Assembly: GCA_030430455.1 (NCBI GenBank)
Contig: JAUIJB010000012.1
Span: 1 to 64,000 of the forward strand
From: Verrucomicrobiia bacterium
GTDB lineage: Bacteria > Verrucomicrobiota > Verrucomicrobiia > Verrucomicrobiales > Akkermansiaceae
Direction of reading: 5' to 3'
DNA: 64,000 nucleotides
Shown: positions 11,743 to 57,612 of the stretch, piece after piece
How the letters are laid out: each line of letters starts with the position of its first letter
Position numbering within the stretch: the stretch's first letter is position 1
Program-made: the position numbers and the translations under genes
The notes under the pieces: generated by a model
Database searches by the model: none
What the model was told of the DNA's origin: nothing
Seen by the model: the letters and a program-made list of their open reading frames with translations, nothing else

Positions 11743-12513
11743 GTGTCCCACCGATCCGTTCCCGCCGCCCTCGCCCTCGCCGCCCTGCCCGCGGCCGCCG
11801 CCACTCCCCTGCCCTCTCTCGAGCCGGACTCGTGGCCCGCCGGGCGCGCCCGCTGGTCGACCGGGACCGCGCCGACCATGGAGGTCGTCGGGGCCGCCGA
11901 GGCCACCCCGGACGATCCCCGCTGGCGCTTCGGCCTGCACTACTTCCAGGGCACCTCGAACGCCCTCGGCGACGTCTTCACCGGGTCGATCGACGCGCTC
12001 GCCCAGAACGGCCTGCGCTTCACCGCGGCACGGGTGCTGACCACCGACCTGTGGAACACCCCGATCGACGTCCTCGCCGAGGGCGGCATCATGTGGCACG
12101 ACGAGAAGGGCAAGCAGCCCAACCTGTTCCAGTACACCCTCGGGCTGAAGTTCGAGTGGGACGAATTCCCCTGGGACTGCCACCTGCGCACCCGGCTCGG
12201 GTTCACCACCGGGATCTCCTACGCCGAGCACATCCCGATCGCCGAGCAGGTCAACCGCCGGGGCGCCTCGAGCTCCCACCTGCTCCACTACCTCGACTTC
12301 TCGCTCGCCCTGAACTGCGCCGACATCAGCCGCCTGACCCGCTTGGAGCTGCTCTTTCCCGGCGACGATGCCAGTGGCATCGACAACGTCTGGCTGACCA
12401 TCGGCGTGCCCCACCGCTCCGGGGCCTGGGGCCTCTACGGTGACGACAACACCGGCAAGGCGATCCAAGGCGGCTCGAACTACCTCTCCGTCGGCATCGA
12501 GGCGGACTTCTGA
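11743..12513 (+). CDS. Secreted, probably outer-membrane beta-barrel protein of unknown function
   Basis: About 256 residues from a GTG at 11743, chosen because it gives a clear signal peptide (SVPAALALAALPAAAATPLP); a TTG 48 bases upstream is possible. The mature part has alternating polar and aromatic residues (FGLHYFQGTSNALGD, LFQYTLGLKFEWDEFPW, LLHYLDFSLALNCAD) and ends in a strand finishing with Phe (VGIEADF), as expected for a barrel inserted by the BAM machinery. General resemblance to small acyl-hydrolase-like barrels was considered, but no catalytic triad was identified. It follows the SLC13 gene on the same strand. Confidence 0.65.
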   Translation: MSHRSVPAALALAALPAAAATPLPSLEPDSWPAGRARWSTGTAPTMEVVGAAEATPDDPRWRFGLHYFQGTSNALGDVFTGSIDALAQNGLRFTAARVLTTDLWNTPIDVLAEGGIMWHDEKGKQPNLFQYTLGLKFEWDEFPWDCHLRTRLGFTTGISYAEHIPIAEQVNRRGASSSHLLHYLDFSLALNCADISRLTRLELLFPGDDASGIDNVWLTIGVPHRSGAWGLYGDDNTGKAIQGGSNYLSVGIEADF

Positions 12514-12613
12514 TTGTCGATTGAAGATTTCCGATTAAGATTGGGAAATGCCTGTTCCGGCGCATCCTCGAGGGATGGATCAATCGGCAATCGGCAATCG
12601 GCAATCGGAGATC
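12514..12613. repeat. Heptamer-periodic inverted arms (GATT / AATC)
   Basis: The gap between two convergent genes holds a left arm of four 7-nt steps starting GATT (12513-12545) and a right arm of four identical CAATCGG steps (12580-12607). The right arm is the reverse complement of CCGATTG, so the two sides can pair imperfectly as a long hairpin. The loop contains a smaller stem CATCC/GGATG. A further palindrome GGAGATC/GATCTCC at 12607-12623 overlaps the stop of the minus-strand gene. Similar loci with other core words occur elsewhere in the window. Confidence 0.8.
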
Positions 12614-13639
12614 TCAGATCTCCAGCATGTGGGTGATGTGGGCGGCGGTCAGTTCGCCCATGGTCCGGCAGTCGTGGAAGACGTCGGTGTGATGGTACTT
12701 CTCGAGGTCGCGGGCGAGGGTCGCGACGTGTTCGCGCGGTGCCAGCTCCTCGCGCCGCATGACCCCGAGCAGCGCCTTCAGGCGGACCTTCTCCACCTTG
12801 GCCCGGCGTGACATCTGGGCGTGTTCCTCGGCGACGTACTGCTCGATCGTCTTGCGGTTGAGCACCTCGAAGGCCAGCCGGGTGATCGCCTTGTTGGAGT
12901 CGAAGCGGTAGGCCAGGTAGGTCTTGCCCCGCTTCTCGTAGCTCTGCTGGTCGAAGTCGATCGGCCGCACGCGGTACTGCACCTCCTCGAAGTCCGGGGT
13001 CATCTCGACCACGTAGTTCACGCTGCGCATGTCGCCGAGCAGGCGCACGAAGCAGCGCTCGTTGAACTTGGTGAACTCCTTGGCGATGCGGACCTTGTTG
13101 ACCCGGCGCCGCTTCAGCTCGTCGGCGAGGAAGACGTTGCCGGGAATGCCGGCGATGTGCTCCTCGATCAGGGTGTTGCCCTTGACCAGGTAGTTGATCC
13201 GGTTCGGCGAGAGGACGTGCTCGATCTCCAGGCCGTAGATCCGCGAGGCGTCGGCGTGCTTGACGTAGAAGTAGTCGGAGTTGTCGTTGTAGAGGTTGGT
13301 GACGCGGATGCGGAAGGGCCGCGAGTTGCCGAACTCGCCGAAGTCGACGCGGTCGACCTGGAGGTGCTCGTGGTGGTCGGTCGCACCGCCGCCGATCTTG
13401 AGCTCCTCGTAGATCCGGATCAGCGCCTCGCGCAGCTCGCGCATGTGCTCCGGCGGGTAGAAGACCGTCAGCCAGAGGGTCTCGCGGCCCTGTGGGTCCT
13501 CATAGGGCATCGAGCCCGCGAAGCGCCGCAGGTCCTCGTAGACGTTCGGTATATCCCTCTGACGGTCAAAGTGATACAGATACTGGCGCAGGGGCGCCGA
13601 AATGCCGTAGGTCTGCTTCCGGCGGGAGATCATCGCCAT
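12614..13639 (-). CDS. Conserved hypothetical protein, 341 residues
   Basis: I do not recognise a named family. The protein is soluble and charged, starts MAMISRRKQTYGISAPLRQ, and has no signal peptide or membrane segment. It contains many basic and acidic residues, several tyrosines in the middle (NLYNDNSDYFYVKHADASR) and a C-terminal helical part (EEHAQMSRRAKVEKVRLKA). Codon use is like its neighbours and the frame is intact for over 1 kb, so it is a real gene. Its ATG lies 76 bases from the stop of pyrE upstream on the same strand. There is no evidence for a function. Confidence 0.8.
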   Translation of the reverse strand: MAMISRRKQTYGISAPLRQYLYHFDRQRDIPNVYEDLRRFAGSMPYEDPQGRETLWLTVFYPPEHMRELREALIRIYEELKIGGGATDHHEHLQVDRVDFGEFGNSRPFRIRVTNLYNDNSDYFYVKHADASRIYGLEIEHVLSPNRINYLVKGNTLIEEHIAGIPGNVFLADELKRRRVNKVRIAKEFTKFNERCFVRLLGDMRSVNYVVEMTPDFEEVQYRVRPIDFDQQSYEKRGKTYLAYRFDSNKAITRLAFEVLNRKTIEQYVAEEHAQMSRRAKVEKVRLKALLGVMRREELAPREHVATLARDLEKYHHTDVFHDCRTMGELTAAHITHMLEI

Positions 13640-13675
13640 GGCGGCGAGCCTGCCAGTCCGCGGCCGCGATGGCGA

Positions 13676-13696
13676 GCGCCGGGTGCCGAGCGCCGG
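13676..13696. repeat. Short heptamer-periodic run (GCGCCGG-like)
   Basis: Three consecutive 7-nt steps (the first and third are GCGCCGG, the middle is GTGCCGA) lie in the gap between the conserved hypothetical gene and pyrE. There is no clear inverted partner. It is listed because the 7-nt step matches the longer loci in this window. Confidence 0.5.
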
Positions 13697-13714
13697 GGAG
13701 GCGCGGGGGTCGCC

Positions 13715-14287
13715 TCAGTCCTCGTCGAGCAGGCTGGCGCGGGTGAACAGGGCGACCACCGGGATGCCGCGGGCCTCGATCGCCTCGCGGCCGCCCTCCT
13801 CGCGGTCGACCAGGACCAGGGCGAAGGCGACCTTGCCGCCCTCGCGCTCGATCGCGTCGACCGCCTTGAGGGTCGAGCCGCCGGTGGTGATGACATCATC
13901 CACGACGATCACCGTACTTCCCTCGCGGAAGTTGCCCTCGATCTGCTTGCCGCGGCCGTGGCCCTTGGGCTCCTTGCGCACGGTGAAGACGGGCAGTGCC
14001 TCGTCGGGGGCGAGCCGATCGGAGGTCATGCCGACGGCCAGCGAGACCGGGTCGGCGCCCATGGTCATGCCGCCGATGGCGTCGACCTCGAGCCCCTCGG
14101 CCTGGATCCGGGCCCGCACCGCGGCCCAGCCGAGCTCGCCGACGAGGTTGGCGCCGACCGGGTCGAGGGTGGTCACGCGGCAGTCGATGTAGAGGTCGCT
14201 CTGCTTGCCGGAGGCGAGGGTGAAGCTGCCGGTGCGGACGGACTTCTCGAGCAGGATGGCCTTCAATTCGGCGGCGTGGTCGGTCAT
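13715..14287 (-). CDS. pyrE: Orotate phosphoribosyltransferase
   Basis: Forms orotidine 5'-monophosphate from orotate and PRPP in de novo pyrimidine synthesis. It has 190 residues, normal length. The PRPP-binding loop TVIVVDDVITTGGSTLKA lies near residues 122-139. The N-terminal helix (AAELKAILLEKSVRTGSFTLASG) and the YIDCR block near residues 32-36 fit the family. Downstream of a repeat cluster and not obviously in an operon with other pyrimidine genes. Confidence 0.95.
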   Translation of the reverse strand: MTDHAAELKAILLEKSVRTGSFTLASGKQSDLYIDCRVTTLDPVGANLVGELGWAAVRARIQAEGLEVDAIGGMTMGADPVSLAVGMTSDRLAPDEALPVFTVRKEPKGHGRGKQIEGNFREGSTVIVVDDVITTGGSTLKAVDAIEREGGKVAFALVLVDREEGGREAIEARGIPVVALFTRASLLDED

Positions 14288-14319
14288 GCCGGCAGCCTAG
14301 CCCGAGGGGCGCGGGTGAG

Positions 14320-14621
14320 AAGTGCGGAGTGGGGGGGAGTCCACGCGACCCCAAGATGCCTGCAAAGCACCGCCCTCACCCAAAGCGGCTCCCAGCCCCG
14401 GGTGAGGCCCAGCCGAACCCCATCGGTCCTATAGGACCCATAGGACCGATGCCCGGTGCTCCGCAGACTCCTCCCATGCGCTCCCAAGAAGCCTGCAAAC
14501 CACCGCCCCCACCCAAAGCTGCTCTCAGCCCCGGGTGAGGCCGAGCCGAACCCCATAGGTCCTATAGGACCCATAGGACCTATGCCCTGCGCTCCGCAGC
14601 ATCCACCCAGGCGCTCCCCAA
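14320..14621. repeat. Two tandem copies of a ~133-bp intergenic element with TAGGACC palindromic core
   Basis: Two direct copies start near 14352 and 14485 (period about 133). Each contains a conserved stretch (GCCTGCAAA then CACCGCCC, CACCCAAAGC, CAGCCCCGGGTGAGGCC) followed by a palindromic core of GGTCCTA, TAGGACC and a second TAGGACC at about 14425-14451 and 14557-14584. The copies differ at scattered positions only. The same element occurs in inverted orientation at 48395-48600, and its core occurs twice at 20570-20745. There is no reading frame with family similarity. A short AGTGCGG/AGTGGGG heptamer run lies at 14327-14337. Confidence 0.85.
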
Positions 14622-14655
14622 GAAAAAGCCGCCGACCCGGACGGGCGGCGGCTTG
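14621..14655 (-). terminator. Rho-independent terminator of rplU-rpmA
   Basis: On the minus strand an 8-bp GC stem (AAGCCGCC with GGCGGCTT on the other side) closes a short loop and is followed by a run of five T. It lies 27 bases past the rpmA stop, the expected place to end the L21-L27 transcript. Confidence 0.85.
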
Positions 14656-14681
14656 GAGAAAAACGGGTGGGTCGGCTTGCC

Positions 14682-14942
14682 TCAGCCGGCGACGACCTCA
14701 CCGGGCTCGACATTCACCCGGCGGCCGTTGCGGTCAAAGTAGACGTTGCCCTCGACGCCAGCGTGGATGGTGTAGTCCTTGCCCATGAAGACGTTCTTGC
14801 CGGGCTGCCACTTGGTGCCGCGCTGGCGGATGATGATGTTGCCGGGAACGACGACCTCGCCGCCGTACTTCTTCACGCCGAGGCGCTTCGAGCGCGAGTC
14901 GCGGCCGTTCTTGACGGAACCTTGTCCTTTCTTGTGAGCCAT
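14682..14942 (-). CDS. rpmA: 50S ribosomal protein L27
   Basis: Large-subunit protein near the peptidyl-transferase centre. It has 86 residues, normal length, starting [20 protein letters not shown] without the Firmicutes-type N-terminal extension. The [16 protein letters not shown] and [11 protein letters not shown]-like ([11 protein letters not shown]) blocks are typical. It lies 22 bases downstream of rplU, as in most bacteria, and is followed by a terminator. Confidence 0.98.
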
Positions 14943-14964
14943 GGTCGGAAGGGGTTGGGAGGGT

Positions 14965-15273
14965 TCAGGCGATCGAGGTGATCTCGAGCTTGGTGAGGTG
15001 GCGGCGGAAGCCCTTGGTCTTGTGGTAGCCCTTGCGGCGCTTGAACTTGAAGGCGACGCCCTTGGGTCCGCGGAACTGGCTGACGACCTTGGCGGTCACG
15101 GCGGCGCCGTCGACCACCGGGGCACCGACCTGGATGTCGGAGCCCTCGCCGATGAGGAGCGGGCTGAATTCGAGCAGGGTCCCGGTCTCGGCGTCGATCT
15201 TCTCGACGTCGATGTGGTCACCTTGTTGGACGCGGTACTGCTTGCCGCCGGTCTTGATCACTGCGTAGGCCAT
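14965..15273 (-). CDS. rplU: 50S ribosomal protein L21
   Basis: Large-subunit protein that binds 23S rRNA. It has 102 residues, normal length, beginning [19 protein letters not shown] and ending with the basic [19 protein letters not shown] segment. The frame is open further upstream, but the ATG at 15273 gives the family N-terminus. First gene of the rplU-rpmA unit; the 128-base gap upstream separates it from the divergent tsaE and should hold both promoters. Confidence 0.98.
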
Positions 15274-15401
15274 GGCCGTGGGAAAAAGGGTTGGAGCCGC
15301 CCGGGCTCGAGCGGGCGGGGAGAACACCACAGGGCCCCGGGCCGGGCAAGGGAATTTTTTGAAATCGACGGGGGAGGGAGATTCAGGTTCTAGGGGCCGG
15401 G

Positions 15402-15815
15402 ATGGAATGGATGGTGGCCGACGAGGAGGCGATGGTGGCGCTGGGCCGGCAAGTCGGCGCCGCTCTGGACGAGGGCGCGGTGCTCGGGCTGGTCGGCGGC
15501 CTCGGCGCCGGCAAGACCCGCTTCTGCAAGGGACTGGCCGAGGGGCTCGGCTACACCGGCGCGGTGACCAGCCCGACATTCCCGCTGCTGCACGAATACC
15601 TCGGCGGACGGCTGCCGGTGTTCCACTTCGACTTCTACCGGCTCGACGGGGAGGGGGAGTTGCTCGGGATCGGCTGGGACGAGTGCCTCGACGAGAGCGG
15701 CGTGGTGGTTGCCGAGTGGGCCGATCGATTCCCGCAACTGATGCCGGCCGGGACGCGCTGGCTCCATTTCGAGTTGCTCGACGAGGGTGGCCGGCGGGTG
15801 CGCGAGGGATCCTGA
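15402..15815 (+). CDS. tsaE: tRNA threonylcarbamoyladenosine biosynthesis ATPase TsaE
   Basis: ATPase partner of the TsaB-TsaD complex that makes t6A at position 37 of ANN-decoding tRNAs. It has 137 residues. The Walker A motif GGLGAGKTRFCKG lies near residues 33-45, followed by TSPTFPLLHEY and VFHFDFYRLDGE, both family hallmarks. The VVVAEWADRFPQL block near the C-terminus also fits. It is divergent from rplU. Confidence 0.95.
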   Translation: MEWMVADEEAMVALGRQVGAALDEGAVLGLVGGLGAGKTRFCKGLAEGLGYTGAVTSPTFPLLHEYLGGRLPVFHFDFYRLDGEGELLGIGWDECLDESGVVVAEWADRFPQLMPAGTRWLHFELLDEGGRRVREGS

Positions 15816-15855
15816 GCCCCCGGGCCGCTCCCGCGGCTGCGCGGTGCCAGCTGCC

Positions 15856-16536
15856 TCAACCGACCCGGCTGTCGAGGCGGAAGGTCTGGCCCGACGTGTG
15901 GGGCAGGTCGCGGTGGAGGTGGCGGATGAAGGCCGCCACGCAGTCCGCGGTGTTGAATCGGCCCAAGCTGTGCTCGCCGCGGACCTGCTCGCGGCGCTGC
16001 GGTGACAGCCCGGCCGTCATGCGGGTCTCGAGGAATCCCGGCAGCACGGCATTGCTGCGGATGCCGAAGGGCCCGGCCTCGCGCGCCAGCGAGCTCATCA
16101 GCCCAAGCAGGCCGGCCTTGGCCGTGGCGTAGGCGGCCTGGCCCGCCGGCGGGTGGATGGCCGAGTGGCTGGAGATGAACACCAGGTGGCCGCGGCGGGC
16201 GCGGCACATCGCCGGCAGCGCGGCCCGGGCGCAGCGCGCGGCACCGTGCAGGTTGACCTCGAGAACCCTCGACCAGCTGGCATCGTCGAGCCGGGCGACC
16301 AGCTTGTCCTCGATGATCCCGGCGTTCGCGATCACCAGGTCGAAGGCGGGCCGGGCGGCGAAATAGGCCGCCACCGAACCCGCCACGGCGACGTCGAGCT
16401 CGTCGCGGCCCGGCGCCTCGACCTGATCACGGTCCGCAGCGCCGGTGCCCGCAGCGCCGCTTGCGTCCGAGAAGGCCCGGGCCAGGGCCCGGCCCAGGTC
16501 GCCCGCGCCGCCGGTGATGAGAATCCGTTCACTCAA
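15856..16536 (-). CDS. Short-chain dehydrogenase/reductase (FabG-like)
   Basis: NAD(P)-dependent oxidoreductase of about 226 residues; substrate unknown. The cofactor motif ITGGAGDLGRA lies at the N-terminus, ANAGIIED supplies the NAG motif, VFISSHSA the catalytic Ser, and AYATAKAG the Tyr-Lys pair. The C-terminal substrate region (GFLETRMTAGLSPQRRE) resembles 3-oxoacyl-ACP reductase relatives. No ATG is available; the TTG at 16536 places the start just before the Rossmann strand, while another TTG at 16575 would add 13 residues. It is convergent with tsaE. Confidence 0.87.
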   Translation of the reverse strand: MSERILITGGAGDLGRALARAFSDASGAAGTGAADRDQVEAPGRDELDVAVAGSVAAYFAARPAFDLVIANAGIIEDKLVARLDDASWSRVLEVNLHGAARCARAALPAMCRARRGHLVFISSHSAIHPPAGQAAYATAKAGLLGLMSSLAREAGPFGIRSNAVLPGFLETRMTAGLSPQRREQVRGEHSLGRFNTADCVAAFIRHLHRDLPHTSGQTFRLDSRVG

Positions 16537-16600
16537 GCCGCGCCGAGCCTGCCTCCTGGCCGCCCCGGCCGGCAAGCCGCGGGATCACCCGGGGCGGGGA

Positions 16601-16650
16601 GGGGTCAACTGGGGCGGGTAGGGGAGGGGTCAACTGGGGCGGGTAGGGGA
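16601..16650. repeat. 25-bp direct repeat, two copies
   Basis: Two identical 25-nt units (16601-16625 and 16626-16650), each beginning GGGGTCAACTGGGG, lie directly before the stop codon end of the TPR gene. A third partial unit runs into that gene's last codons. Confidence 0.85.
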
Positions 16651-16654
16651 GGGG

Positions 16655-17191
16655 TCACGATCCCCCGGCCGGCCGGATGACCGTGGCGTGCTTGTCGAAG
16701 CGCGCCGTGGCGCCGGCCTGCTGCAGGAGGTAGTCGAGCGCGGTCTTGGCCGGGACCCCCCGCAGGCGGATGGTGACCTCCCGCTCGCCGAGGTCGCTGC
16801 CGCCGCCCTGGATCATGAAGTTGGGCGTGAAGGGGTCCTTCGATTCGGATTGTTGATCGGCGATCAACTGGTCGAGCCCCTGGAGGGCCTCGGACAGGGT
16901 GACCCGGTTGAAGTCGACTTTGTCGAGGGTCACCGCCGCCAGCTGGTTGGCGCGCTTCTTGCCGACCAGTTGGCCCTCCTGCTGTTTGAGGACGCCGAGC
17001 TGGTAGCGGGCGTGGGCGTGGTTCGGATCGATGCGCAGGGCCTCGCCGAAGGACTTGCGGGCGACTTCGACATCGCCGGAATTCATCGCGGACATGCCGC
17101 GCTTGTAGGCATCGTCGGCGGATTGCGCCGCCAACGGCAGGGCCGCCAGCGAGAGCAGGGCGGCGAGGAGCGGGAAGGAGCGGAGTTTCAT
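16655..17191 (-). CDS. Secreted TPR protein with STN-like C-terminal domain
   Basis: 178 residues. A signal peptide (MKLRSFPLLAALLSLAALPL, cleavage near AAQSADD) is followed by about 1.5 TPR units (DAYKRGMSAMNSGDVEVARK, FGEALRIDPNHAHARYQLG) and a C-terminal domain. That domain has the pattern of secretin/TonB short N-terminal (STN) domains: VTLSEALQGLDQLI, then VTIRLRGVPAKTALDYLLQQ. The frame is open 66 bases upstream, but this ATG gives the signal peptide. It lies downstream of the Lon-domain-like gene on the same strand and may act with it in the periplasm. Function is not known. Confidence 0.72.
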   Translation of the reverse strand: MKLRSFPLLAALLSLAALPLAAQSADDAYKRGMSAMNSGDVEVARKSFGEALRIDPNHAHARYQLGVLKQQEGQLVGKKRANQLAAVTLDKVDFNRVTLSEALQGLDQLIADQQSESKDPFTPNFMIQGGGSDLGEREVTIRLRGVPAKTALDYLLQQAGATARFDKHATVIRPAGGS

Positions 17192-17423
17192 GGGCTGCGT
17201 GGTTTCAGGTTTCACGACCCGCCGGTCGGGGGCGGGAGAGATCGGGATCAGTGCCATTCCAATACTCCCTCAGGGTTTTCCCGGGGGCAACCTCGCAGTC
17301 GCTTCCACAACGAATTTCCCGCTCCGCGTGTCGACGCTGTGCCCACATCGTGACAACCGCGCCGGCCGGGGGGGTCGGAGGCGGGCCGGGCGACCTGAGT
17401 GAAACGGGCGAAACGGAGCGGGC

Positions 17424-19136
17424 CTACTTCGGCGGCAGCCCGGCCTCGACGCGGAGCCTGGCGAGGAGCCCCTGGTAGGCCACCCGGGCGCGGCCGACAT
17501 TGCCATCGCTCATCACGTTCTGCTTGCGGATCGACTTGGTCACCTGGTCGACCGGATTGAGCAGGTCGTCGACGGCGGTGTGCAGTTCGCGATCGTCGAG
17601 GTCAAGGAGCGGGTAGATCTCCTCGAGACGCTGACGGCACTCCTCGATGGCGGCATCGACCGCGCCCTCCTCGATCAACTCGGGTTTCACGTTGATCGCC
17701 TTGCCGATCGGGGTGATGGCGCGGAGCAGTTCGCCGGCGACGATTTCCCGCGGCAGGTAGCGCGGCCACTTCGAGGTGCCGCGCAGGGCCAGCATGCGCG
17801 CCGAGGCGTGGCGCGGCTCCGCGGCGAAGACCTGCCGCAGGCGCGCCTGGGTGTGCGGGTTGGCGACGAAGGACCCCAGCGAGCTGCGCTGGCCGACCCG
17901 CTGGATTTCCGCAAACTGGGCCAGCGGTGCGGGCAGATCGCCGGCGACCGGCAGCGACGCCAGCCCGGCAAGACCGTCGGCGTCGCGGGCGAGGAGGACC
18001 TCGTGCTTCATGAAGAACGAGGCGCGGCCGAGGGTGAGCATCGCCGGAAAGGACTCGACCGCCTCGGCCGGCATCAGCCAGCGGCGACCGTCGAGCGACT
18101 CCAACTCAGCGAGCAGCTGCCAGAACTGGTTCGGCAGTTTCAGCGATCCATCGGGCTGGACCTCGGCGATGACCCCGGCGGTCGGCTCCGCACCGGTGAT
18201 GATGGCCTCGCTGATCAGGAAGGCCGCGGCCGAGATCGACATGCCGTTGCGGGCGGTCGAATAGGCCAGCCCCTTCGGCAGGCTGAGTACCAGCTTGATC
18301 CGGTGGATCTCCGCGCCATGGCGTTCTTCGAGGAGCGGGCGGAGGATGTTGCCGAGGAGCTGCGCGGTCGCCCGCTCGGTGCCGAACTCGACCGTGAAGC
18401 GCGGCGAGTTCTTTCCGGCACCCTTGCCGCCACCGTCGGGCTTCGGGGGCGCGACCACCGCGCGTCCGGCGAGGCTCGCGGCCACCAATCGGGTCCGGTT
18501 GCTCTCGCGGTCGAGCACCACGAGGGGAAAATCGGCGGTCGCGGCCTCGAGCGCGGGCTGCCAAGGCTCGTCCGGCTCCTCCGCCTGCGGGGGCTCCACG
18601 GACTCCGGATCGGGTGGGTCGACGAAGGCCTCGCGGTCCTCGACCCATCCCCGCCACGCTCCCGTCTCGGCCCGGCTCGCCGCCGCACGCGGGTGGTCCG
18701 GATCGAGCGCACCGAGCACGTCGAGCAGGCAGGCCCCGAGGGCGCGGCCGTCGGCGCCGGCGGCGTCCGAGCTGAGCCATCCCTCGAGCTCCCAGCCCTG
18801 GCGGACCACGCCCTGGAAGTCCATCTCGCGCGAGGCTTCCGGCTCGACGCCTTCGCCGAGCTCGCGCAGCAGGTCCCGCGCGGGCCGGTTCGCCGGGTCG
18901 AGCACCCGCGCCAGCCCGAGCAGCTGGGCCCGCAGCCGCATGCCGTCCGGGCCCTCGCGCTCGACCGAGGCGGCGAGGAATCCCAGCTGGCGGGACAGCT
19001 GGTTCATGCTGTCCACGTCGAGTGGCACCCGCTCGCGCCGGAATGGCTCGGCACCCTCCCGCGGCGGCACGAAGGCGGCGAGCGCACTGCCCGCCAGCAG
19101 GCAAAAGATGACCAGGGATGCTCTCAACCGCCTCAT
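17424..19136 (-). CDS. Secreted protein with a Lon-protease-domain-like segment
   Basis: 570 residues. A signal peptide (ASLVIFCLLAGSALAAF) starts the protein, followed by a helical, Pro/Glu-interrupted half. At about 285-345 the pattern RNGMSISAAAFLISEAI then AGVIAEVQPDGSLKLP resembles the S16 (Lon) proteolytic fold, where DGPSAG carries the Ser and TGEITLRGxVLPIGG follows. The Lys normally found in the GGLKEK segment is not visible, so activity is doubtful. The C-terminal third is helical (RVGQRSSLGSFVANPHTQAR). This assignment is an inference from pattern alone; the rest of the protein is unrecognised. Confidence 0.65.
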   Translation of the reverse strand: MRRLRASLVIFCLLAGSALAAFVPPREGAEPFRRERVPLDVDSMNQLSRQLGFLAASVEREGPDGMRLRAQLLGLARVLDPANRPARDLLRELGEGVEPEASREMDFQGVVRQGWELEGWLSSDAAGADGRALGACLLDVLGALDPDHPRAAASRAETGAWRGWVEDREAFVDPPDPESVEPPQAEEPDEPWQPALEAATADFPLVVLDRESNRTRLVAASLAGRAVVAPPKPDGGGKGAGKNSPRFTVEFGTERATAQLLGNILRPLLEERHGAEIHRIKLVLSLPKGLAYSTARNGMSISAAAFLISEAIITGAEPTAGVIAEVQPDGSLKLPNQFWQLLAELESLDGRRWLMPAEAVESFPAMLTLGRASFFMKHEVLLARDADGLAGLASLPVAGDLPAPLAQFAEIQRVGQRSSLGSFVANPHTQARLRQVFAAEPRHASARMLALRGTSKWPRYLPREIVAGELLRAITPIGKAINVKPELIEEGAVDAAIEECRQRLEEIYPLLDLDDRELHTAVDDLLNPVDQVTKSIRKQNVMSDGNVGRARVAYQGLLARLRVEAGLPPK

Positions 19137-19207
19137 TCTAGGAATCTCCTACGGTCACTCTCAAGCCGGGATTGCAGAGTAGCCCGGGAAGGGATCACCC
19201 TCGGCCC

Positions 19208-19624
19208 ATGTCCGGCACCGAGCGACCCCAGATCACCACCCATGAGGAGGTGATGTTCTTCGACACCGACTGCGCGGGAGTGGTCAACAACATCGCCTAC
19301 CTGCGCATGATCGAGACCTGCCGCACGCGCCTCGCCGCGGTGATGGGCATGGACCTGGCGGGAATGTCGCGGACCCAGCTCTTCCCGGTGGTCCATCGCA
19401 CCGAGATCGACTACCGGCGACCGGCCAAGCTCGCCGACCGGCTCGCCATCCACGGCAGGCTCGGCCGGCTCCAGCGGGCGCGGTTCTGGTGCGAGTTCGA
19501 GATGCGCCGCGAGGGCGACGACCAGCTTCTCATCACCTGCCGCCAGTCCCTCGCCCTGGTCCAGATGCCCGCCGGCCGCCCGGTCCGGCTGCCGGAGGCG
19601 TGGATGAAATGGGAGGGGGAGTGA
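19208..19624 (+). CDS. 4-hydroxybenzoyl-CoA-type hotdog thioesterase (YbgC/FadM-like)
   Basis: Hydrolyses acyl-CoA or acyl-ACP thioesters. It has 138 residues from the ATG at 19208. The catalytic Asp block FFDTDCAGVVNNIAYLRMIE near residue 18 is the family signature. VVHRTEIDYRRPAKLADRL and the MRREGDDQLLITCRQSLALV strand follow in the usual order. The frame is open 36 bases upstream but that stretch overlaps the promoter region of the divergent gene. It stands alone between divergent and convergent neighbours. Confidence 0.88.
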   Translation: MSGTERPQITTHEEVMFFDTDCAGVVNNIAYLRMIETCRTRLAAVMGMDLAGMSRTQLFPVVHRTEIDYRRPAKLADRLAIHGRLGRLQRARFWCEFEMRREGDDQLLITCRQSLALVQMPAGRPVRLPEAWMKWEGE

Positions 19625-20569: not shown

Positions 20570-20745
20570 TAGGACCGATAGGACCCATGGGACCTATCTG
20601 GCGTGAGGCTGCGCCTCACCCTTGAATTTTGGACGGCTCCGGAAGGTGAGGTCCCGCCCCGCCCATCTTCGCAGCGACAGGGCCGACACTGCGGAGCCCA
20701 GGAGATGCTCCCATAGGTCCTATAGGACCCATAGGACCTATTTCC
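20570..20745. repeat. Two copies of the TAGGACC-core intergenic element, diverged
   Basis: Two palindromic cores with the same TAGGACC words as at 14425 and 48415 lie at about 20570-20598 and 20715-20741, in the gap between the vapBC-type unit and mnmG. The first core is flanked on the left by GCGGAGCACAGGGAATAGG, as in the copy at 48400; the second is followed by CGCTCCGCC. The long conserved arm of the 133-bp unit is replaced by other sequence. A hairpin GTGAGGCTGCGCCTCAC at 20602-20618 lies between them. Confidence 0.75.
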
Positions 20746-28954: not shown

Positions 28955-28982
28955 GCCGGGCGGCTGCCTGGGTGAGCCGAGC

Positions 28983-29190
28983 GGCTGCGACCCCTGCCGG
29001 GGTCGGATGGGGTCGCACGCCTCCGGGGGTGTCGCTGCGCTCGACCCCCGGCTAATGGCTGTGACCCCTACCGGGGTCGGTGGAGGGCGTGAACGAACTC
29101 CGGGGGTGTTGCTGCGCTCGACCCCCGGCTAACGGCAGTGACCCCTGCCGGGGTCGCTGGAGGGCGTGGACGAACTCCGGAGGTAGGTGA
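28983..29190. repeat. ~77-bp tandem repeat with two hairpins per unit
   Basis: Units begin near 28983, 29057 and 29134 (the last partial). Each contains the palindrome GACCCC-TGCC-GGGGTC and then a longer stem CCGGGGGT/ACCCCCGG around GCTGCGCTCG, ending in GGCTAA. The copies differ at few bases. This fills most of the gap between the E2 gene and the photolyase gene. Confidence 0.85.
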
Positions 29191-39355: not shown

Positions 39356-40897
<1,542 letters not shown>

Positions 40898-40899
40898 GT

Positions 40900-40965
40900 T
40901 ATACGTTACTTGTTATTTGTTATTGGGAAAACAAATAACAATTAACCACTAACCCTTAACAGACA
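40900..40965. repeat. Heptamer-periodic hairpin between atpA and atpG (GTTA / TAAC)
   Basis: The left side steps every 7 nt through xGTTAxx four times (40896-40923). The right side steps every 7 nt through xTAACxx four times (40935-40962). The inner 12 bases TTGTTATTTGTT (40910-40921) and AACAAATAACAA (40930-40941) pair perfectly with an 8-base loop. The segment is far more AT-rich than the flanking genes. Confidence 0.85.
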
Positions 40966-40967
40966 CA

Positions 40968-41867
40968 GTGGCCAACCTCCGCGACATCCGCCGGCGCATC
41001 AAGTCGGTCAAGAACACCGCCCAGATCACCCGGGCGATGCAGCTCGTCGCCGCGGCCAAGATGAAGAAGGCGCAGGACCAGGCCCTCGCCGGCCGCGACT
41101 ACGCCGACCTCCTCAACCAGGTCCTCGTCAACCTCAAGGAGAACGTCGACGAGGAGGCCCACCCGCTGCTCGAGAAGCGCGACGGGGGCGGCAAGGAGCT
41201 GGTGCTGGTCATCTCGACCGACAAGGGCCTGTGCGGCCCGCTCAACACCAACCTCGCCAAGAAGATCCGCGCCGACCTCCCGGACGCCGACCTCGTCACC
41301 GTCGGCCGCAAGCTGCGCATCCAGTTCGGCAAGGCCGGCCGCAACATGGTGGCCGACTTCGAGGTCAAGGACCCGGTCCCCTTCGGCGAGGCCCGGCCGA
41401 TCGCCAAGCTGCTCACCCAGCTCTTCCTCGAGAAGAAGTACGACAAGGTCAGCGTGGCCTTCTCCAACTTCGTCTCGACCCTCAACCAGGAGCCGACCGT
41501 CGTCCAACTGCTGCCGATCGCCGCCGACAAGCTCGGCGAGAAGCGCTCCTACGAGGGCATGGGCAACGAGGTGAAGGTCGACGAGACCAACCACACCGCG
41601 GCGCTCTCGAAGGACTACCTCTTCGAGCCCTCCGGTCAGGACGTCCTCGACACCCTGCTGCCGCTCTACGTCAACTTCCAGGTCTACCAGATGCTGGTCG
41701 AGAGCCGCGCCTCCGAGCACTCCGCGCGGATGGTCGCCATGAAGGGCGCCACCGACAACGCCAACAAGTTCATCAAGGAGCTCACCCTCGAGTACAACAA
41801 GCTCCGCCAGGCGGCCATCACCGCCGAACTCCTCGAGATCACCACCGCCATGAAGGCGATGGAGTGA
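40968..41867 (+). CDS. atpG: F0F1 ATP synthase subunit gamma
   Basis: Central rotor shaft, 299 residues. The start is a GTG (giving MANLRDIRRRIKSVKNTAQI), the typical N-terminal helix. VLVISTDKGLCGPLNTNLAK and the C-terminal helix MVAMKGATDNANKFIKELTL are conserved. The unusual start and the hairpin just upstream could tune gamma output relative to alpha. Confidence 0.97.
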   Translation: MANLRDIRRRIKSVKNTAQITRAMQLVAAAKMKKAQDQALAGRDYADLLNQVLVNLKENVDEEAHPLLEKRDGGGKELVLVISTDKGLCGPLNTNLAKKIRADLPDADLVTVGRKLRIQFGKAGRNMVADFEVKDPVPFGEARPIAKLLTQLFLEKKYDKVSVAFSNFVSTLNQEPTVVQLLPIAADKLGEKRSYEGMGNEVKVDETNHTAALSKDYLFEPSGQDVLDTLLPLYVNFQVYQMLVESRASEHSARMVAMKGATDNANKFIKELTLEYNKLRQAAITAELLEITTAMKAME

Positions 41868-43454
<1,587 letters not shown>

Positions 43455-43457
43455 TCC

Positions 43458-43497
43458 TTGTCAGCGTTTCAGGATTTCAGCTTTTCAGCCTTTTCAC
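43458..43497. repeat. 8-nt periodic TCAG run between atpD and atpC
   Basis: TCAG recurs every 8 bases four times, and a fifth step ends TTCAC directly at the atpC ATG. There is no inverted partner in this gap. It is the third periodic gap in the ATP synthase operon. Confidence 0.7.
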
Positions 43498-43911
43498 ATG
43501 AGCCTCCACCTCGAAATCGTCACTCCGGAGAAGAAGGTTTTCTCCAGCGACGTCGCCAACGTCTACCTGCCGGGAGCCGACGGTGAACTCGGGGTGCTGG
43601 AACTCCACGCCGCGCTGGTCACCGCGATCAAGCCCGGCGAGCTGCGCTACGAGAAGGACGGCAAGGTCGAGAACCTGGCCGTCGGCACCGGCTTCGCCGA
43701 GGTCACCCCGAACCGCGTCAACGTCCTCACCGACATGGCGCTCGGCGAGGAGCAGATCGACGAGTCCAAGGTCGAGGAGGCGATGAAGCGTGCCGAGGAG
43801 CAACTCAAGGGGCTCGCCCACGACCACGACGCCGAGGAGGTCGCCCACCTCCAGGCGATGATCGCCAAGTCGGTCGCCCAGCTCAACCTGAAGCGCCGCC
43901 ACCGCGGCTGA
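43498..43911 (+). CDS. atpC: F0F1 ATP synthase subunit epsilon
   Basis: Rotor and inhibitory subunit, 137 residues. The N-terminal beta sandwich (MSLHLEIVTPEKKVFSSDVA, LPGADGELGVLELHAALV) and the C-terminal helical hairpin (EAMKRAEEQLKGLAHDHD) are both present. Last gene of the operon; a G+C-rich repeat follows. Confidence 0.96.
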   Translation: MSLHLEIVTPEKKVFSSDVANVYLPGADGELGVLELHAALVTAIKPGELRYEKDGKVENLAVGTGFAEVTPNRVNVLTDMALGEEQIDESKVEEAMKRAEEQLKGLAHDHDAEEVAHLQAMIAKSVAQLNLKRRHRG

Positions 43912-48394: not shown

Positions 48395-48591
48395 GCGGAG
48401 CGCAGGGGATAGGTCCTATGGGTCCTATAGGACCTATGGGGTTCGGCTGGGCCTCACCCGGGGCTGAGGGCCGCCTTGCGTGGGTGCGGTGCTTTGCAGG
48501 CTTCTTGGGAGCGAATGGTTGGAGGCTGCGGAGCACAGGGCATCGGTCCTCTGGGTCCTCTAGGACCGATGGGCTTCGGCCGGGCCTCCCC
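48395..48591. repeat. Inverted-orientation copy of the TAGGACC-core element, two units
   Basis: Two units in the opposite orientation to the pair at 14352. Cores lie at about 48411-48437 and 48543-48571, and between them are GGCCTCACCCGGGGCTGAG and GTGCTTTGCAGGCTTCTTGG, the complement of the arm in the 14.4-kb copies. The second core has extra C/T changes (CTCTGGG, CTCTAGG). Confidence 0.85.
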
Positions 48592-50211: not shown

Positions 50212-50268
50212 AGAAAATTAGTTCGATTAAGAAAAAAAGTTCGTATTGTGGTCCGCATTTCGTCTAGT

Positions 50269-51078: not shown

Positions 51079-51174
51079 GGCCACGTCCGAATCGAGGACG
51101 AGGTGGCGACGGTGCGTCATCCGCCGCGGCGGATCCGTCGGCCTCGAGGTGTGGAAGCGGGGCGGAAGGGCGAT

Positions 51175-51289
51175 TCGGCAGGCTGAAGCCTGCGGTCCGA
51201 CTGGGGGGAACGGCCGCGGCGGACGACGGCCCGGCGGTGCAGCCGCCTCGAGTCTTCCGTCTTGAGCCTTCCCGTCTTCCGTCTCCGGC
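51175..51289. repeat. GCAGGCT palindrome and heptamer-periodic run upstream of alaS
   Basis: GGCAGGCTGAAGCCTGCGG (51178-51197) matches, inverted, the element at 36806. At 51252-51287, five 7-nt steps start GTCTTCC or a close variant, with one extra base after the third. No inverted arm was found. The rest of the 315-base gap before alaS shows no gene. Confidence 0.65.
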
Positions 51290-51393
51290 GCAGCCGGCCT
51301 TTACTCGCCGCCGGGATTCTCCCATGGTCCCGCCCCTTTCGTGCTCAGAGAGTTCCCACCGATTCGTCAGCTCCCTCCCCGCCACGTCCGCCC

Positions 51394-54219
<2,826 letters not shown>

Positions 54220-55215
54220 TCAGCCGGCGTCTTCGTCGCCGTTCTGCTCGACGACCGCCTTGTTGCCGGCGGGATTCTCCTCGGGGGCCTCGGCGGCTTC
54301 GGGGTCGACCAGTCCGCGCAGCTCGCTTTGCCACTCCCCGGCCTTCTCGTGGGTCAGGTGGGCCTTGATGTGATTGAGCATCCTCAGGGCCGCCTGCTGC
54401 TCGTCGCCCGCCTTGAAGACGTCGACCTCCATTTCCCAGATCAGTTCCGGGCGCTTCTCGCGGATGAAGTCAGCCTTGGCGGTCTCGATGGCCTCCTCGT
54501 GGGCGTCGTCGTCGTCACCGTTGCGGCGGTTGGGCGGTGTCAGCTGCTCGATCACGGCGAGTTCGCAGTTGATCCGCTCGGTCCAGGTCGCCCGGATCCC
54601 GGCGTAGTCGCGGGCCAGGCGCAGGGGTGGCAGGATGACCTGCTCGTAGATGTTCTCGGCCGGAAGGATCGAACTGGGCCACTCCTGGGGCCTGAGATCG
54701 TCCAGTTCGTAGGCCTTGGCAAAGGGAGTGCCGAAGACGTTGGAACTCAGCACGCGCTGGTGCGGCTGCAGCGCCTTGGCGTCGTTGAAGACTCCCAGCA
54801 GGAGGCTGTGGGCGCGCGCAATGATGTCGTCCGGCGGGTCGTCACTGCCGGCCTGGACCGCCAGGATCAGCCAGCGCATCTGAAACTGCAGCGCCTTGCC
54901 GAAATCGTTGTCGCCGAGGCGCTCGCGATTGCGGCGCTTCCACTCGCGATAGTCCTGCGAGTCGCGGCCGCGGTCGATGAAGTCGACCTTCTCGACGCAC
55001 TTCTCGTAGAACTCGATCGCCGACTGGGGGCTCTCGAGGGCCGAGAGGAAGGCGCCCGCGGCGGCGCGGATCCGGGCGTCCTTGCTGTTCTGGGCGGCGT
55101 TTTCGAGCGCCTCGAGCTGGCCGAGAAGGGCCTGCCGCTCGGGCTCGGTCAGGGGATCAGCGGCGGCAAGAGCCAGCAGCAGGCCGAGCAAGGGGAACAA
55201 ACGGAGGAACTTCAT
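54220..55215 (-). CDS. Secreted helical protein of unknown function
   Basis: 331 residues. A signal peptide (FLRLFPLLGLLLALAAADPL) is followed by a helical region (TEPERQALLGQLEALENAAQ, LESPQSAIEFYEKCVEKVDF) and a charged C-terminal tail (EAPEENPAGNKAVVEQNGDE). No family is recognised. Codon use is typical of the window. It ends exactly at the alaS stop. Confidence 0.72.
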   Translation of the reverse strand: MKFLRLFPLLGLLLALAAADPLTEPERQALLGQLEALENAAQNSKDARIRAAAGAFLSALESPQSAIEFYEKCVEKVDFIDRGRDSQDYREWKRRNRERLGDNDFGKALQFQMRWLILAVQAGSDDPPDDIIARAHSLLLGVFNDAKALQPHQRVLSSNVFGTPFAKAYELDDLRPQEWPSSILPAENIYEQVILPPLRLARDYAGIRATWTERINCELAVIEQLTPPNRRNGDDDDAHEEAIETAKADFIREKRPELIWEMEVDVFKAGDEQQAALRMLNHIKAHLTHEKAGEWQSELRGLVDPEAAEAPEENPAGNKAVVEQNGDEDAG

Positions 55216-55268
55216 CAGGAGGCGGCTACGTCCCGCCTATCCAACTACTTACGGCTGCGGAGAAAATG

Positions 55269-56180
55269 TCAAGATGGCTCGCCCGCGGCGCGGACCCCCG
55301 ACCCGGCCCCCAGGCGGTCCCTGCCGCTTGGGTGGGCGAGCTTCTCAAGGGCCCTTGCGAGCGCCTCGGGAGGGGTGTAGCCCGGGGCGGCCAGCAGGAT
55401 CCGCGGCCCGATAAGCCGCGCCTCGCCCGCGCCGCCGACCACCGGGCAGCCACCGGCGCGGGCGAGCGCGGCAAGGGTCTCGCGGCCCGGATCGGCCGGG
55501 TCGGCGACCAGCAGCATCCCATCGATCCCGCCCAGGGCCTTCTCGATCGTGCGCTCGCGCGCCGCGGCCTCGGGAGTCCGCGTGTCGATCACCTCGACCC
55601 GGGCATCGCGGAAACGCCCCCGCACCGCGCCGGCGATCGCCGCCAGGCGGCGCCCCGGAAACTGGCTGGTGCAGGCGATCGAGATGCGCGTGGCGTAGCC
55701 GAGGGTGACCACCTCGTCGGCTTCCTCGATCAGCCGCAGGCCGGGGCAATCGCGCAACAGGAAGCGCGCCTCGGCATCGTCGCGACCACCGGCCAGCAGG
55801 GTCTCATCACCAGCCCGGAGGCAGGACAGCAGGGTTGCGCGGAGACGTCGGATCGATGGCAAGGTCAGGTCGACCAGCTCGTGACCCGCCTCCTTCCAGC
55901 CTCGCTGCACGGCCAGCGGCATCCCGGTCATCGGCACCACCACCGCCCGGGTCGATGCCTCGAAGGCAGCCGGATCGCCCTCGACGGCGCCGGCGCGGCG
56001 GGCCCGGTCCAGAAGCTCGCGGCTGGGAAGCGGGTCGCCCAGCAGGGTGAGCGGCTCCGCCTCCAGACGCCGGGCCAACACCGCCCAGGCATCCCGCGCC
56101 TCCTGACCCATCCCGAGCGCCGCCGACCGGCAAATCCGGAGTCCCGTCCCGTCCCATGCACTCGTGGCTCGATGATTCAT
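55269..56180 (-). CDS. IspH (LytB)-fold protein with lost cluster ligands
   Basis: 303 residues, the length of IspH. The order of elements follows IspH throughout: LRICRSAALG aligns with NPRGFCAGV, VVVPMTGMPLAVQRGWKEAG with the SAHGVSPAVREEAR block, LVDLTLPSIRRLRATL with IDATCPLVTKV, LGYATRISIACTSQFPG with the TQTTLS strand, and IDTRTPEAAARERTIEKAL with the ICYATQNRQEAV block. The first cluster Cys (Cys17) is kept, but the second and third read Leu and Asp/Thr, and the active-site His-Gly is Thr-Gly. This alignment is by eye. A real IspH must be encoded elsewhere. Confidence 0.55.
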   Translation of the reverse strand: MNHRATSAWDGTGLRICRSAALGMGQEARDAWAVLARRLEAEPLTLLGDPLPSRELLDRARRAGAVEGDPAAFEASTRAVVVPMTGMPLAVQRGWKEAGHELVDLTLPSIRRLRATLLSCLRAGDETLLAGGRDDAEARFLLRDCPGLRLIEEADEVVTLGYATRISIACTSQFPGRRLAAIAGAVRGRFRDARVEVIDTRTPEAAARERTIEKALGGIDGMLLVADPADPGRETLAALARAGGCPVVGGAGEARLIGPRILLAAPGYTPPEALARALEKLAHPSGRDRLGAGSGVRAAGEPS

Positions 56181-56181
56181 G

Positions 56182-56255
56182 CTTTGTAGTGCAAAGTTAA
56201 AGTGTCGAAAAGAACCCGCGTGGGCGGGCGATCGATCAAACTTTGCTACACAAAG
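56182..56255. promoter_or_regulatory. Paired CTTTG-N5-CAAAG operator-like boxes
   Basis: CTTTGTAGTGCAAAG (56182-56196) and CTTTGCTACACAAAG (56241-56255) are each palindromic 15-mers. Their surroundings (AACTTTG) repeat in inverted order. They lie beside the start of the IspH-fold gene and the end of the winged-helix gene. They may bind that regulator, which is an inference. Confidence 0.55.
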
Positions 56256-56285
56256 TCATTTTGACAAGCCCAATGTTGGGGTGGG

Positions 56286-56585
56286 CTATTTCCCCAGATC
56301 GACGATCTGCTCGAGCAGGGCGAGGTAGTCCTGGAAGGCCTTGCGGCCGGCCGGGGTGAGCAGGTAGCGGGTTTGTGGCCGGCCCTCGCCGGTGATTTTC
56401 TCGGACTCGAGGTAACCGGCGCGCTCGAGGTGGCGCAGGTGGGTGATGAGGTTGCCGTCGCTCATCTCCAGCTCGCCCTTGAGGTCCTGGAACGGCCACG
56501 GCGCGGCGCGCGAGGCGAGCAGCGTCATGATCGCCAGCCGACCCTTCTCGTGGATCGTCTTGTCGAGCTTGCTGAAATCGATCAT
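56286..56585 (-). CDS. Winged-helix transcriptional regulator
   Basis: 99 residues, a stand-alone DNA-binding domain of the ArsR/MarR-like helix-turn-helix group with the pattern FQDLKGELEMSDGNLITHLR (recognition helix) and ESEKITGEGRPQTRYLLTPA (wing). No metal- or ligand-binding Cys/His is seen. Its ATG overlaps the stop of the membrane gene upstream by 4 bases, so the two are co-translated; such pairs often have the regulator control its membrane partner. Confidence 0.88.
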   Translation of the reverse strand: MIDFSKLDKTIHEKGRLAIMTLLASRAAPWPFQDLKGELEMSDGNLITHLRHLERAGYLESEKITGEGRPQTRYLLTPAGRKAFQDYLALLEQIVDLGK

Positions 56586-57202
56586 GCGCCGTCGGTCCGG
56601 CCGGTGGTGACGATCATGGCCCCGTAGAGCAAGTGGAACCCGCCGAAGGTCGCGGCCATGAGGCCCGAGGGACCGAGCTTGGAAACCAGCGGGGTGGCCG
56701 ACTGCACGAAGGTCACCGCCGACAGCGAGAGCAGCCCGGTGGCGAGGAAGGCCAGCCCGAGCCAGCCCATCGAGCGCGGCGCGAACTCGCGGATCGCCAG
56801 CAGGGCGAGGCCGTAGTGGAGGATCCAGAAGCAGGCCGCGAAGGTCTCGCACTTGGGGCTGCCGAAGCGCAGGTAGAGCAGGCCGAGGAAGCCGCCGACC
56901 ACCAGCGAGGGCAGCCCGCCGCGCAGCGCCACCCGCAGGCCGTGGGACCAGAACGGCCGACCGTGGGCGATCGCCCGCCGCTGCAGCTGCCACAGGGCGA
57001 AGAGGATGACCAGGCCGAGGCCGACGAACCACGGCGCACCCCAGGCCCAGGTGTCCTTTCCCTCGCTCAGCCACCCTGCCGCCAGCGCCGCCGCCCCGCC
57101 GACCAGCGCCGCCTCGCCGGAAAGCGCGCGGAACAAGGTCGCCCGCTCCATCATCGTCCGGATCACCCGCAGCTGCTCCGCCGCCTCTTCATGGGTCGTC
57201 AT
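56582..57202 (-). CDS. Integral membrane protein paired with the regulator
   Basis: 206 residues with about six hydrophobic segments (WFVGLGLVILFALWQL, LPSLVVGGFLGLLYLRF, FWILHYGLALLAIREFA, GLAFLATGLLSLSAVTFVQS and others). The N-terminal part EEAAEQLRVIRTMMERATLF is a charged helix. The family is not recognised. It overlaps the winged-helix gene by 4 bases; a long repeat-filled gap lies upstream. Confidence 0.8.
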   Translation of the reverse strand: MTTHEEAAEQLRVIRTMMERATLFRALSGEAALVGGAAALAAGWLSEGKDTWAWGAPWFVGLGLVILFALWQLQRRAIAHGRPFWSHGLRVALRGGLPSLVVGGFLGLLYLRFGSPKCETFAACFWILHYGLALLAIREFAPRSMGWLGLAFLATGLLSLSAVTFVQSATPLVSKLGPSGLMAATFGGFHLLYGAMIVTTGRTDGA

Positions 57203-57265
57203 GCCGCGGACTTTGCGAAGCAAAGCGCCCTCCGGCAAGCGCGGAGTGCTCCCCGCCCACTGCCG

Positions 57266-57460
57266 GTGGTCCGTGGTCCCGTGTCCTTTGTCCCTTGTCC
57301 CTTGTCGAAGAAGGCCCTTGGAGTCGAGCGAAGCGCGCTGCAAGCGCGTCCCAGAGAAGCTCATGTGCCTCCGCGCCTCCCATGATCGACAACGGACAAC
57401 GGACAACGGACAAGGGACAAGGGACAAAGGACAACGGACAACGGACAACGGACAAAAAAG
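57266..57460. repeat. Heptamer-periodic hairpin (GTCC / GGAC), longest locus
   Basis: Left arm: six 7-nt steps with GTCC (57268-57309). Right arm: ten consecutive 7-nt steps, nine of them GGACAAC or a last-base variant (57388-57457). A 24-base segment (57283-57306) is the exact reverse complement of 57409-57432, with 102 bases between. The gap lies upstream of the membrane-protein gene. Confidence 0.9.
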
Positions 57461-57514
57461 CCCGCCACTTCATCGCGACCCGAAGTCGTGCCCAAGCGCC
57501 TCACTCCAAACCCG

Positions 57515-57612
57515 GCACCAAGCACAAAGCACAACACCCCGCAGCTCACCCGGCTCCGCCCCTCCCGCACCCCACCGCCACGGGCACTTTCCACTTTTTA
57601 CTCGGCACTCCC
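57515..57612. repeat. Two further short heptamer-periodic runs
   Basis: Near 57519-57535 the word AGCACAA occurs twice at a 7-nt step. Near 57586-57612 four 7-nt steps carry ACT (GCACTTT first). The two runs are not complementary. They extend the repeat-rich gap before argJ. Confidence 0.5.

Follow-up and report, generated by a model that had tools for sequence, protein, structure and literature searches.

Some intergenic gaps of a 64,000-nucleotide stretch of DNA from Verrucomicrobiia bacterium (this whole stretch is the window) carry tandem arrays of short words that recur every seven bases, and at several gaps the complementary word lies on the other side. The window is located on contig 74 of a 4.22-Mb assembly in 150 contigs, the genome being denoted G000. 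Its atpG protein is closest among named relatives to those of Haloferula rosea and H. luteola (87% protein identity), and G000 is therefore grouped with the Akkermansiaceae-like Verrucomicrobiota. The arrays, the shorter runs and the adjoining genes are located as follows.

12514..12613, no strand assigned: GATT/AATC locus in a convergent gap, with a GATT-type 5' arm at 12512-12545 and four CAATCGG units at 12581-12608
13673..13695, no strand assigned: run reported earlier near 13676, score 6, background
39356..40897, plus strand: atpA (ATP synthase alpha), Pfam PF00006, subunit named from operon order
40898..40967, plus strand: GTTA/TAAC locus in the atpA-atpG gap, with the 5' arm at 40898-40924 and the 3' arm at 40932-40960
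40968..41867, plus strand: atpG (gamma), named from its operon position
41868..41990, plus strand: AGTG/CACT locus in the atpG-atpD gap, with an AGTGATC-type 5' arm at 41872-41908 and a CACTGAT-type 3' arm at 41952-41983
41991..43454, plus strand: atpD (beta), named from its operon position and a weak similarity to the gene at 39356
43457..43496, plus strand: array in the atpD-atpC gap with a TTTCAG core and an 8-nt step, one-sided and without a stable fold
43498..43911, plus strand: atpC (epsilon), Pfam PF02823
51252..51284, no strand assigned: run reported earlier near 51252, scores 5 and 6, background
57266..57306, minus strand: arm of GTCC type in plus-strand reading, in the gap upstream of the minus-strand gene 56582-57202
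57388..57455, minus strand: GGACAAC array of 9.7 units, the complement of the arm at 57266-57306
57515..57534, minus strand: one-sided run of GCACAAA units, lag-7 score 10.5
57682..58974, minus strand: argJ-like gene, Pfam PF01960, upstream on its own strand of the gap 57203-57681

A preliminary description of this DNA had listed seven repeat loci with one shared 7-nt step. The four two-armed loci and the run at 57515 are retained. The runs at 13676 and 51252 are assigned to background, because a score of 6 is equally common in the window at lags 7, 8 and 10 (33, 32 and 37 segments). Most window loci do step by 7 nt, but the atpD-atpC gap of the same operon steps by 8. The TAAC-type 3' arm in the atpA-atpG gap ends seven bases upstream of the start codon. 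For four of the five window arrays a complement is found in the rest of the same gap (score 11), and the fifth array spans both arms itself. Predicted RNA folding is strongest for the AGTG/CACT locus at 41868-41990 (z -6.69; 0 of 200 shuffles fold equally well), followed by 57263-57410, which is part of the GTCC/GGAC locus (z -3.86; 0 of 200), 12514-12613 (z -2.70; 2 of 200) and 40898-40967 (z -2.37; 6 of 200).

The 7-nt arrays are real, and their excess is genome-wide and family-wide. In the window scan, which penalised mismatches more harshly than the other scans, four lag-7 segments score at least 13, while ten order-3 Markov sequences give 0.1 on average and at most 1. At the same threshold there are no segments at lags 8, 10 and 11, one each at lags 9, 12, 13 and 18, and three at lag 14, the double step. 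Score cut-offs for arrays differ between the analyses (9, 11, 12 or 15) and are given with each result. The larger G000 sample of 993,726 bases (0.99 Mb) contains 36 arrays scoring at least 15 at lag 7, compared with 14 at lag 8 and with 5 at either of lags 10 and 11; the 24 found at lag 9 include coding DNA, in which codons raise multiples of three. In the smaller first G000 sample (234 gaps) the excess over shuffled gaps at lag 7 (z 9.9) is second only to that at lag 1 (z 13.3), and lags 11 (z 8.2) and 9 (z 7.9) are not far below. The family sample consists of 999 gaps from 80 named loci of relatives; atpG is at the centre of each locus, which gives the ATP operon the largest weight, and two of the loci (L071 and L075) derive from one assembly. 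Here the z values at lags 7, 14 and 21 are 21.7, 13.5 and 11.5, and they stay at or below 9.8 at all remaining lags apart from lag 1. Coding DNA, taken as a control, gives a flat signal at lag 7. An excess at lag 7 in gaps, which the preliminary description had proposed to look for, is found both in G000 and in the named loci.

The period varies between genomes. No distinct lag 7 is seen in the same-genus genome G001 (z 3.1, compared with 3.8 at lag 8, 3.2 at lag 9 and 3.7 at lag 11), and the array density (score at least 11) is 53 in 0.99 Mb of G000 versus 3 in 0.4 Mb of G001. A four-unit AACT pattern was looked for in 194 Verrucomicrobiota genomes and is present in 50 of them at 7 nt, in 16 at 8 nt and in 9 at 6 nt; this census covers one core, with TCAA as control, and so undercounts, G000 itself giving no AACT match and one TCAA match. 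In the sample of genome G178 (0.2 Mb) lag 7 gives 21 arrays and lag 8 gives 15. Successive different 7- and 8-nt arrays occupy single gaps of G178 at L171 16515-16826, L172 15823-15942 and L173 5320-5403, and those of L172 and L173 resemble one composite read on opposite strands.

Genes were predicted with a home-made codon model that recovered 30 of 30 checked atpG genes, although some gaps will be wrong. In G000, 42 of 45 lag-7 arrays (score at least 12) lie inside predicted gaps. The orientation of these gaps differs between the two samples. For the named loci, arrays are present in 73 of 847 co-directional, 1 of 97 convergent and none of 126 divergent gaps; the corresponding numbers for G000 are 23 of 349, 16 of 100 and 3 of 121. 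Within the co-directional gaps of the named loci, arrays are found in 65 of 570 ATP-operon gaps versus 8 of 277 others; operon gaps were assigned by position, and homologous gaps of related species make these counts non-independent. The atpA-atpG gap (20 of 79), the gap after atpG (20 of 78) and the following gap (15 of 72) account for high frequencies, and the two gaps upstream of atpA-atpG have arrays in 3 of 72 and 0 of 54 cases. Arrays in co-directional gaps also show a polarity: A/C-rich arrays make up 52 of 59 in the right half and 19 of 41 in the left half (p 1e-5). The arrays lie in gaps and have a period of 7 (less often 8), and part of the family has inherited them at particular operon gaps.

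This inheritance is most readily followed at the atpG-atpD gap. The gaps of relatives hold words of TGATCAC, TGAAAAC, TGATAAC or TTTTAAC type, or none. When the word classes are placed on a tree of 78 atpG proteins, 14 changes suffice, versus 19.6 after shuffling, and none of 200 shuffles is as low. The word classes of this gap are inherited, with turnover. Words thus differ between sister genomes while the period and the arms persist in some of them, which is the outcome that the preliminary description had expected from such a comparison. Complementary halves (score at least 9) are present in 9 of 78 atpA-atpG gaps, 11 of 75 gaps after atpG and 8 of 61 following gaps. When all first samples are pooled, a set made up mostly of ATP-operon gaps, complementary halves (score at least 10) are found in 27 of 40 co-directional gaps that are 70-250 bases long and carry an array, versus 9% of swapped halves. 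Nine two-armed atpG-atpD gaps of similar length, including that of the window, align in register with 23 predicted pairs, of which 94% are paired; the nine gaps were hand-picked and the armed L049, L067 and L075 were left out, so this share reflects the choice. In the alignment 23 cells are changed on both sides, compared with a shuffled mean of 7.8 (0 of 500 as high), and when one side is slid by 1-3 columns only 2-5 doubly changed cells remain. A TTT(T/C)ACGCAGTAAAA-like stretch, common to L068, L088 and L111, abuts the atpG start codon in array-bearing gaps.

Words also recur within a genome. In G000, 43 of 976 pairs of arrays at different loci share a word, versus 2.4 on average and never more than 8 in 500 simulations; GGACAAC and GAGCGGA are each found at five loci of the 0.99 Mb. 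The statement that each locus has its own word is correct inside the window and fails across this larger sample. None of the 43 word-sharing pairs has homologous flanks, and 14 of the 933 remaining pairs do. Copies of one mobile element are thereby rejected as the source of the shared words, in line with the preliminary description, which had argued against such copies. Its more general proposal, a generating process rather than element copies, agrees with the genome- and family-wide excess of the period and with the change of words at an orthologous gap. A lexicon common to all genomes was not found when G000 was compared with the named loci and four further genome sets: G000 and the named loci have five words in common (1.8 expected, null maximum 8), at least two of them ATP-operon words, and each further set shares at most one word with G000.

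The sequence context of the start codons in the named loci is consistent with a leader role for some arrays. Among starts that have an array within 30 nt, 1 of 65 is preceded by a Shine-Dalgarno-like motif; the numbers are 31 of 782 for co-directional starts without an array and 40 of 252 for divergent starts. G makes up 7.9% of the last 30 nt preceding array-bearing starts, and the start regions fold with a mean of -1.4 kcal/mol with an array (58 gaps) versus -3.3 kcal/mol without (603 gaps). An A/C-rich array before the start fits the initiation context of the family, because Shine-Dalgarno-like motifs are rare and the region is G-poor and weakly folded. The complement of such an array, located behind the stop codon of the preceding gene, provides the other side of a hairpin. 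A leader array together with a hairpin may be relevant to expression.

The explanation that we prefer, and to which we assign roughly an even chance, is that these are heptamer arrays of the same kind as the STRR repeats of cyanobacteria, born by slippage and homogenised, some of them being retained in operon gaps, where they form a hairpin and a G-poor leader. Units would arise via local duplication or replication slippage. Further slippage of units would homogenise the array, and the word of a locus would drift in the process. The second arm could follow by hairpin-templated copying (quasi-palindrome template switching) or by selection on an RNA hairpin. The arrays of the family's ATP operon would be tolerated or retained because they provide both an intercistronic hairpin after one gene and a G-poor, weakly folded leader lacking a Shine-Dalgarno sequence before the next start codon. 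Elsewhere in G000, chiefly in convergent gaps, the long one-sided arrays look like tolerated expansions, to which no role is ascribed.

Several observations weigh against this explanation. Reuse of words at unlinked loci of one genome is what plain slippage explains least. A constant core with many variable positions is found in L219 at 1508 (G000) and L146 at 12673 (G118), with cores AGC..G and AAC and very variable positions otherwise; in a test for such cores 17 of 122 arrays reach p<0.05, with a lenient null that treats changes in neighbouring units as independent, so that a constant core in some arrays is suggestive only. The complementary word on the opposite side, described earlier for four of the loci, is present at these four window loci; elsewhere in G000 it is found for 2 of 34 arrays, no more often than for 11 of 234 controls (score 11), and the majority of G000 arrays are one-sided. 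In the nine-gap alignment the other two statistics are less impressive, with 9 doubly changed pairs versus 6.1 shuffled (12 of 500 as high) and 11 pair types versus 10.0 (204 of 500 as high). The double substitutions are nearly all in three related rows (L089, L093 and L120) and may represent one replacement event. No array is recognised in 58 of 78 gaps after atpG, so any function of the arrays must be dispensable. The leader context also differs in G000, where Shine-Dalgarno-like motifs precede 1 of 9 starts with an array, 48 of 340 co-directional starts without and 43 of 242 divergent starts, and the G content is 19.6%.

A rival explanation is that the arrays are neutral microsatellites only, with period 7 as the commonest long simple repeat of bacteria and no retained function. 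In its favour, no other class of long repeats is as abundant as the heptanucleotides in most genomes (Mrazek 2007, cited in PMC4679880), the density varies strongly within the genus, as in G000 and G001, and long one-sided arrays without arms exist. Paired changes in the two arms at atpG-atpD and the enrichment at the same ATP-operon gaps across the named loci argue against pure neutrality, which we regard as possible but doubtful. Selection of a genome-specific word at many gaps by a protein that reads heptads in RNA or DNA (S1-, Csp- or Csr-like, or a global regulator) would account for the small lexicon that recurs in G000 without shared flanks and is hardly common to other genomes, for cores kept while other positions vary, and for the preference of named-loci arrays for co-directional gaps. 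Such binding sites are nevertheless unlikely, since relatives have different words in one and the same gap, a single genome can hold several unrelated words, and in G000 the convergent gaps are richer in arrays than the co-directional ones.

A dedicated enzyme that writes the arrays is improbable by our estimate; candidates would be a HUH (Y1) transposase that works on hairpins, or a polymerase, terminal or templated, that extends the 3' ends of breaks by T/G-rich heptamers. The preliminary description had looked to a polymerase, reverse transcriptase or recombinase. None of these families is found among the 19 window proteins scanned with Pfam, of which 4 match nothing, and no dedicated enzyme emerged from the genome comparisons. 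RVT_1 is present in 24 of 50 genomes with AACT heptamers versus 45 of 144 others; with AACT or TCAA heptamers counted, the numbers are 37 of 77 versus 32 of 117 (p 0.004, rising to 0.25 when only genomes of 3 Mb or more are counted). It has no match in 26 of the 50 array-bearing genomes, including G118, G101, G160 and G178, some of which are incomplete so that a few may be missed. A reverse transcriptase as a requirement is thus rejected, and a weak association remains. The association is stronger for Y1_Tnp, with 73 of 77 array-bearing versus 64 of 117 other Verrucomicrobiota genomes (p 2e-10), 57 of 60 versus 37 of 49 in genomes of at least 3 Mb (p 0.0045), and a median p of 0.007 with one genome per family; for comparison, DDE_Tnp_1 is present in 49 of 77 versus 60 of 117 (p 0.1). 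At the level of loci the picture is mixed. A lag-7 array accompanies 1 of 21 Y1 loci of G000, below the background density, and the Y1 transposase is rejected as an array neighbour in this genome. Five other genomes together have an array at 8 of their 29 Y1 loci, namely 4 of 8 in G050, 2 of 3 in G118, 2 of 12 in G178 (where 21 arrays lie in 0.2 Mb), and 0 of 3 each in G101 and G070. The array-bearing Y1_Tnp loci of G050 are L244, L259, L261 and L265, with the lag-7 array within 1.5-kb flanks; the background density of G050 was not sampled. The co-occurrence of Y1_Tnp with arrays is a lead, not a mechanism. The A/C polarity of co-directional arrays would suit addition at break ends, but it is not seen in the G000 sample of about 1 Mb (p 0.46 and 0.19), is reversed in seven convergent G178 arrays, and can be explained by the G-poor leader of the named loci; telomerase-like addition is rejected. 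Just as improbable, in our view, is a hitherto undescribed activity that replaces entire arrays where they stand and changes the two arms together, with a lineage-specific unit of 7 or 8 and a genome-specific lexicon that spreads between unlinked gaps without flanks; Y1 (HUH) could take part in it.

Other repeats and one RNA gene are present in the window. A family of short palindromes on CCTATAGGACCCATAGG, partly with a 9-nt step, is located at 14419-14577, 20575-20735 and 48415-48564; it gives 10 window matches with at most 2 mismatches versus none in shuffles, and the exact CCTATAGGACCCATAGG word is present at three further G000 loci (L033, L036 and L208). Longer tandem repeats comprise units of about 133 bp at 14349-14624 and of 77 bp at 28982-29184. 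A bacterial small SRP RNA is encoded on the minus strand at 3375-3469 (RF00169, 46.7 bits).

These results extend a poorly explained phenomenon, the heptamer repeats, to Verrucomicrobiota. They place it in an essential ATP synthase operon of many related species, where at the same gap the 7-nt architecture is kept in some lineages and the word differs. The origin of heptamer repeats and a possible role in mRNA thus become directly testable at the ATP operon. Plain polymerase slippage will have to account for word sharing without shared flanks and for mixed 7- and 8-nt periods.

The arrays had initially been taken for a possible undescribed system. This does not hold, as hairpin-forming intergenic heptamers are published for cyanobacteria (PMC2670836) and paired hepta- and octamers for Geobacter (PMC2700814). 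Among the matches listed in the open-access literature no heptamer arrays of Verrucomicrobiota were found, with a repeat survey that covers Verrucomicrobia (PMC4060949) represented without its supplementary tables. REP elements are palindromes of 20-40 bp with GTAG or CGTC tags and RAYT (Y1) transposases, and Opitutus terrae, a verrucomicrobium, is rich in GTAG repeats (PMC3733652). They resemble the present arrays in being intergenic palindromes, and in the co-occurrence of Y1 transposases at the genome level. However, the present repeats are tandem heptamers, and in G000 they are not linked to Y1 genes. The GGGNATC heptamers of Xanthomonas and Nostoc are genome-wide, over-represented in non-coding DNA and in part arranged as inverted pairs, and they vary in length and sequence between related species (PMC4692102); they represent a single G-rich, quadruplex-forming word type, whereas many words are found here. 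TAACTGA direct repeats are described in Beggiatoaceae, Cyanobacteria and some Bacteroidetes, and binding by S1, Csp or Csr proteins was proposed (MacGregor 2015, PMC4679880). Like some of the present arrays, they are intergenic and lie shortly upstream of start codons, but they consist of one word, with 169 direct sets and one indirect set in that genome, in contrast to the many words and the complementary arms at some gaps here.

Geobacter metallireducens has three to five tandem units of 7 or 8 nt, often as pairs on opposite strands at a variable distance, for which a global regulator was proposed (PMC2700814). Those similar sites were matched by BLAST in one genome, whereas here the word-sharing loci have no shared flanks and the words vary. 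The STRR repeats of filamentous cyanobacteria are usually 7 bp long, capable of forming hairpins and of no known function, and are found between hupS and hupL; roles in transcript stability or translational coupling were suggested (PMC2670836). Stem-loops near the processing sites of Anabaena nif transcripts, which are not said to be heptamers, may stabilise or prolong these transcripts (PMC4284476). The present arrays share with STRR the tandem 7-bp unit, as lag 7 exceeds lags 8, 10 and 11, and the intergenic position. As to hairpins, the four two-armed window loci are predicted to fold into them and the paired changes at atpG-atpD lend support; in the rest of G000 complementary arms do not exceed the controls. 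The differences are the phylum and the presence of several words per genome that differ at orthologous gaps, and the likeness is one of description. On this comparison the closest known counterparts of the verrucomicrobial arrays appear to be the cyanobacterial heptanucleotide STRR and hairpin repeats, together with the paired hepta- and octamer sites of Geobacter.

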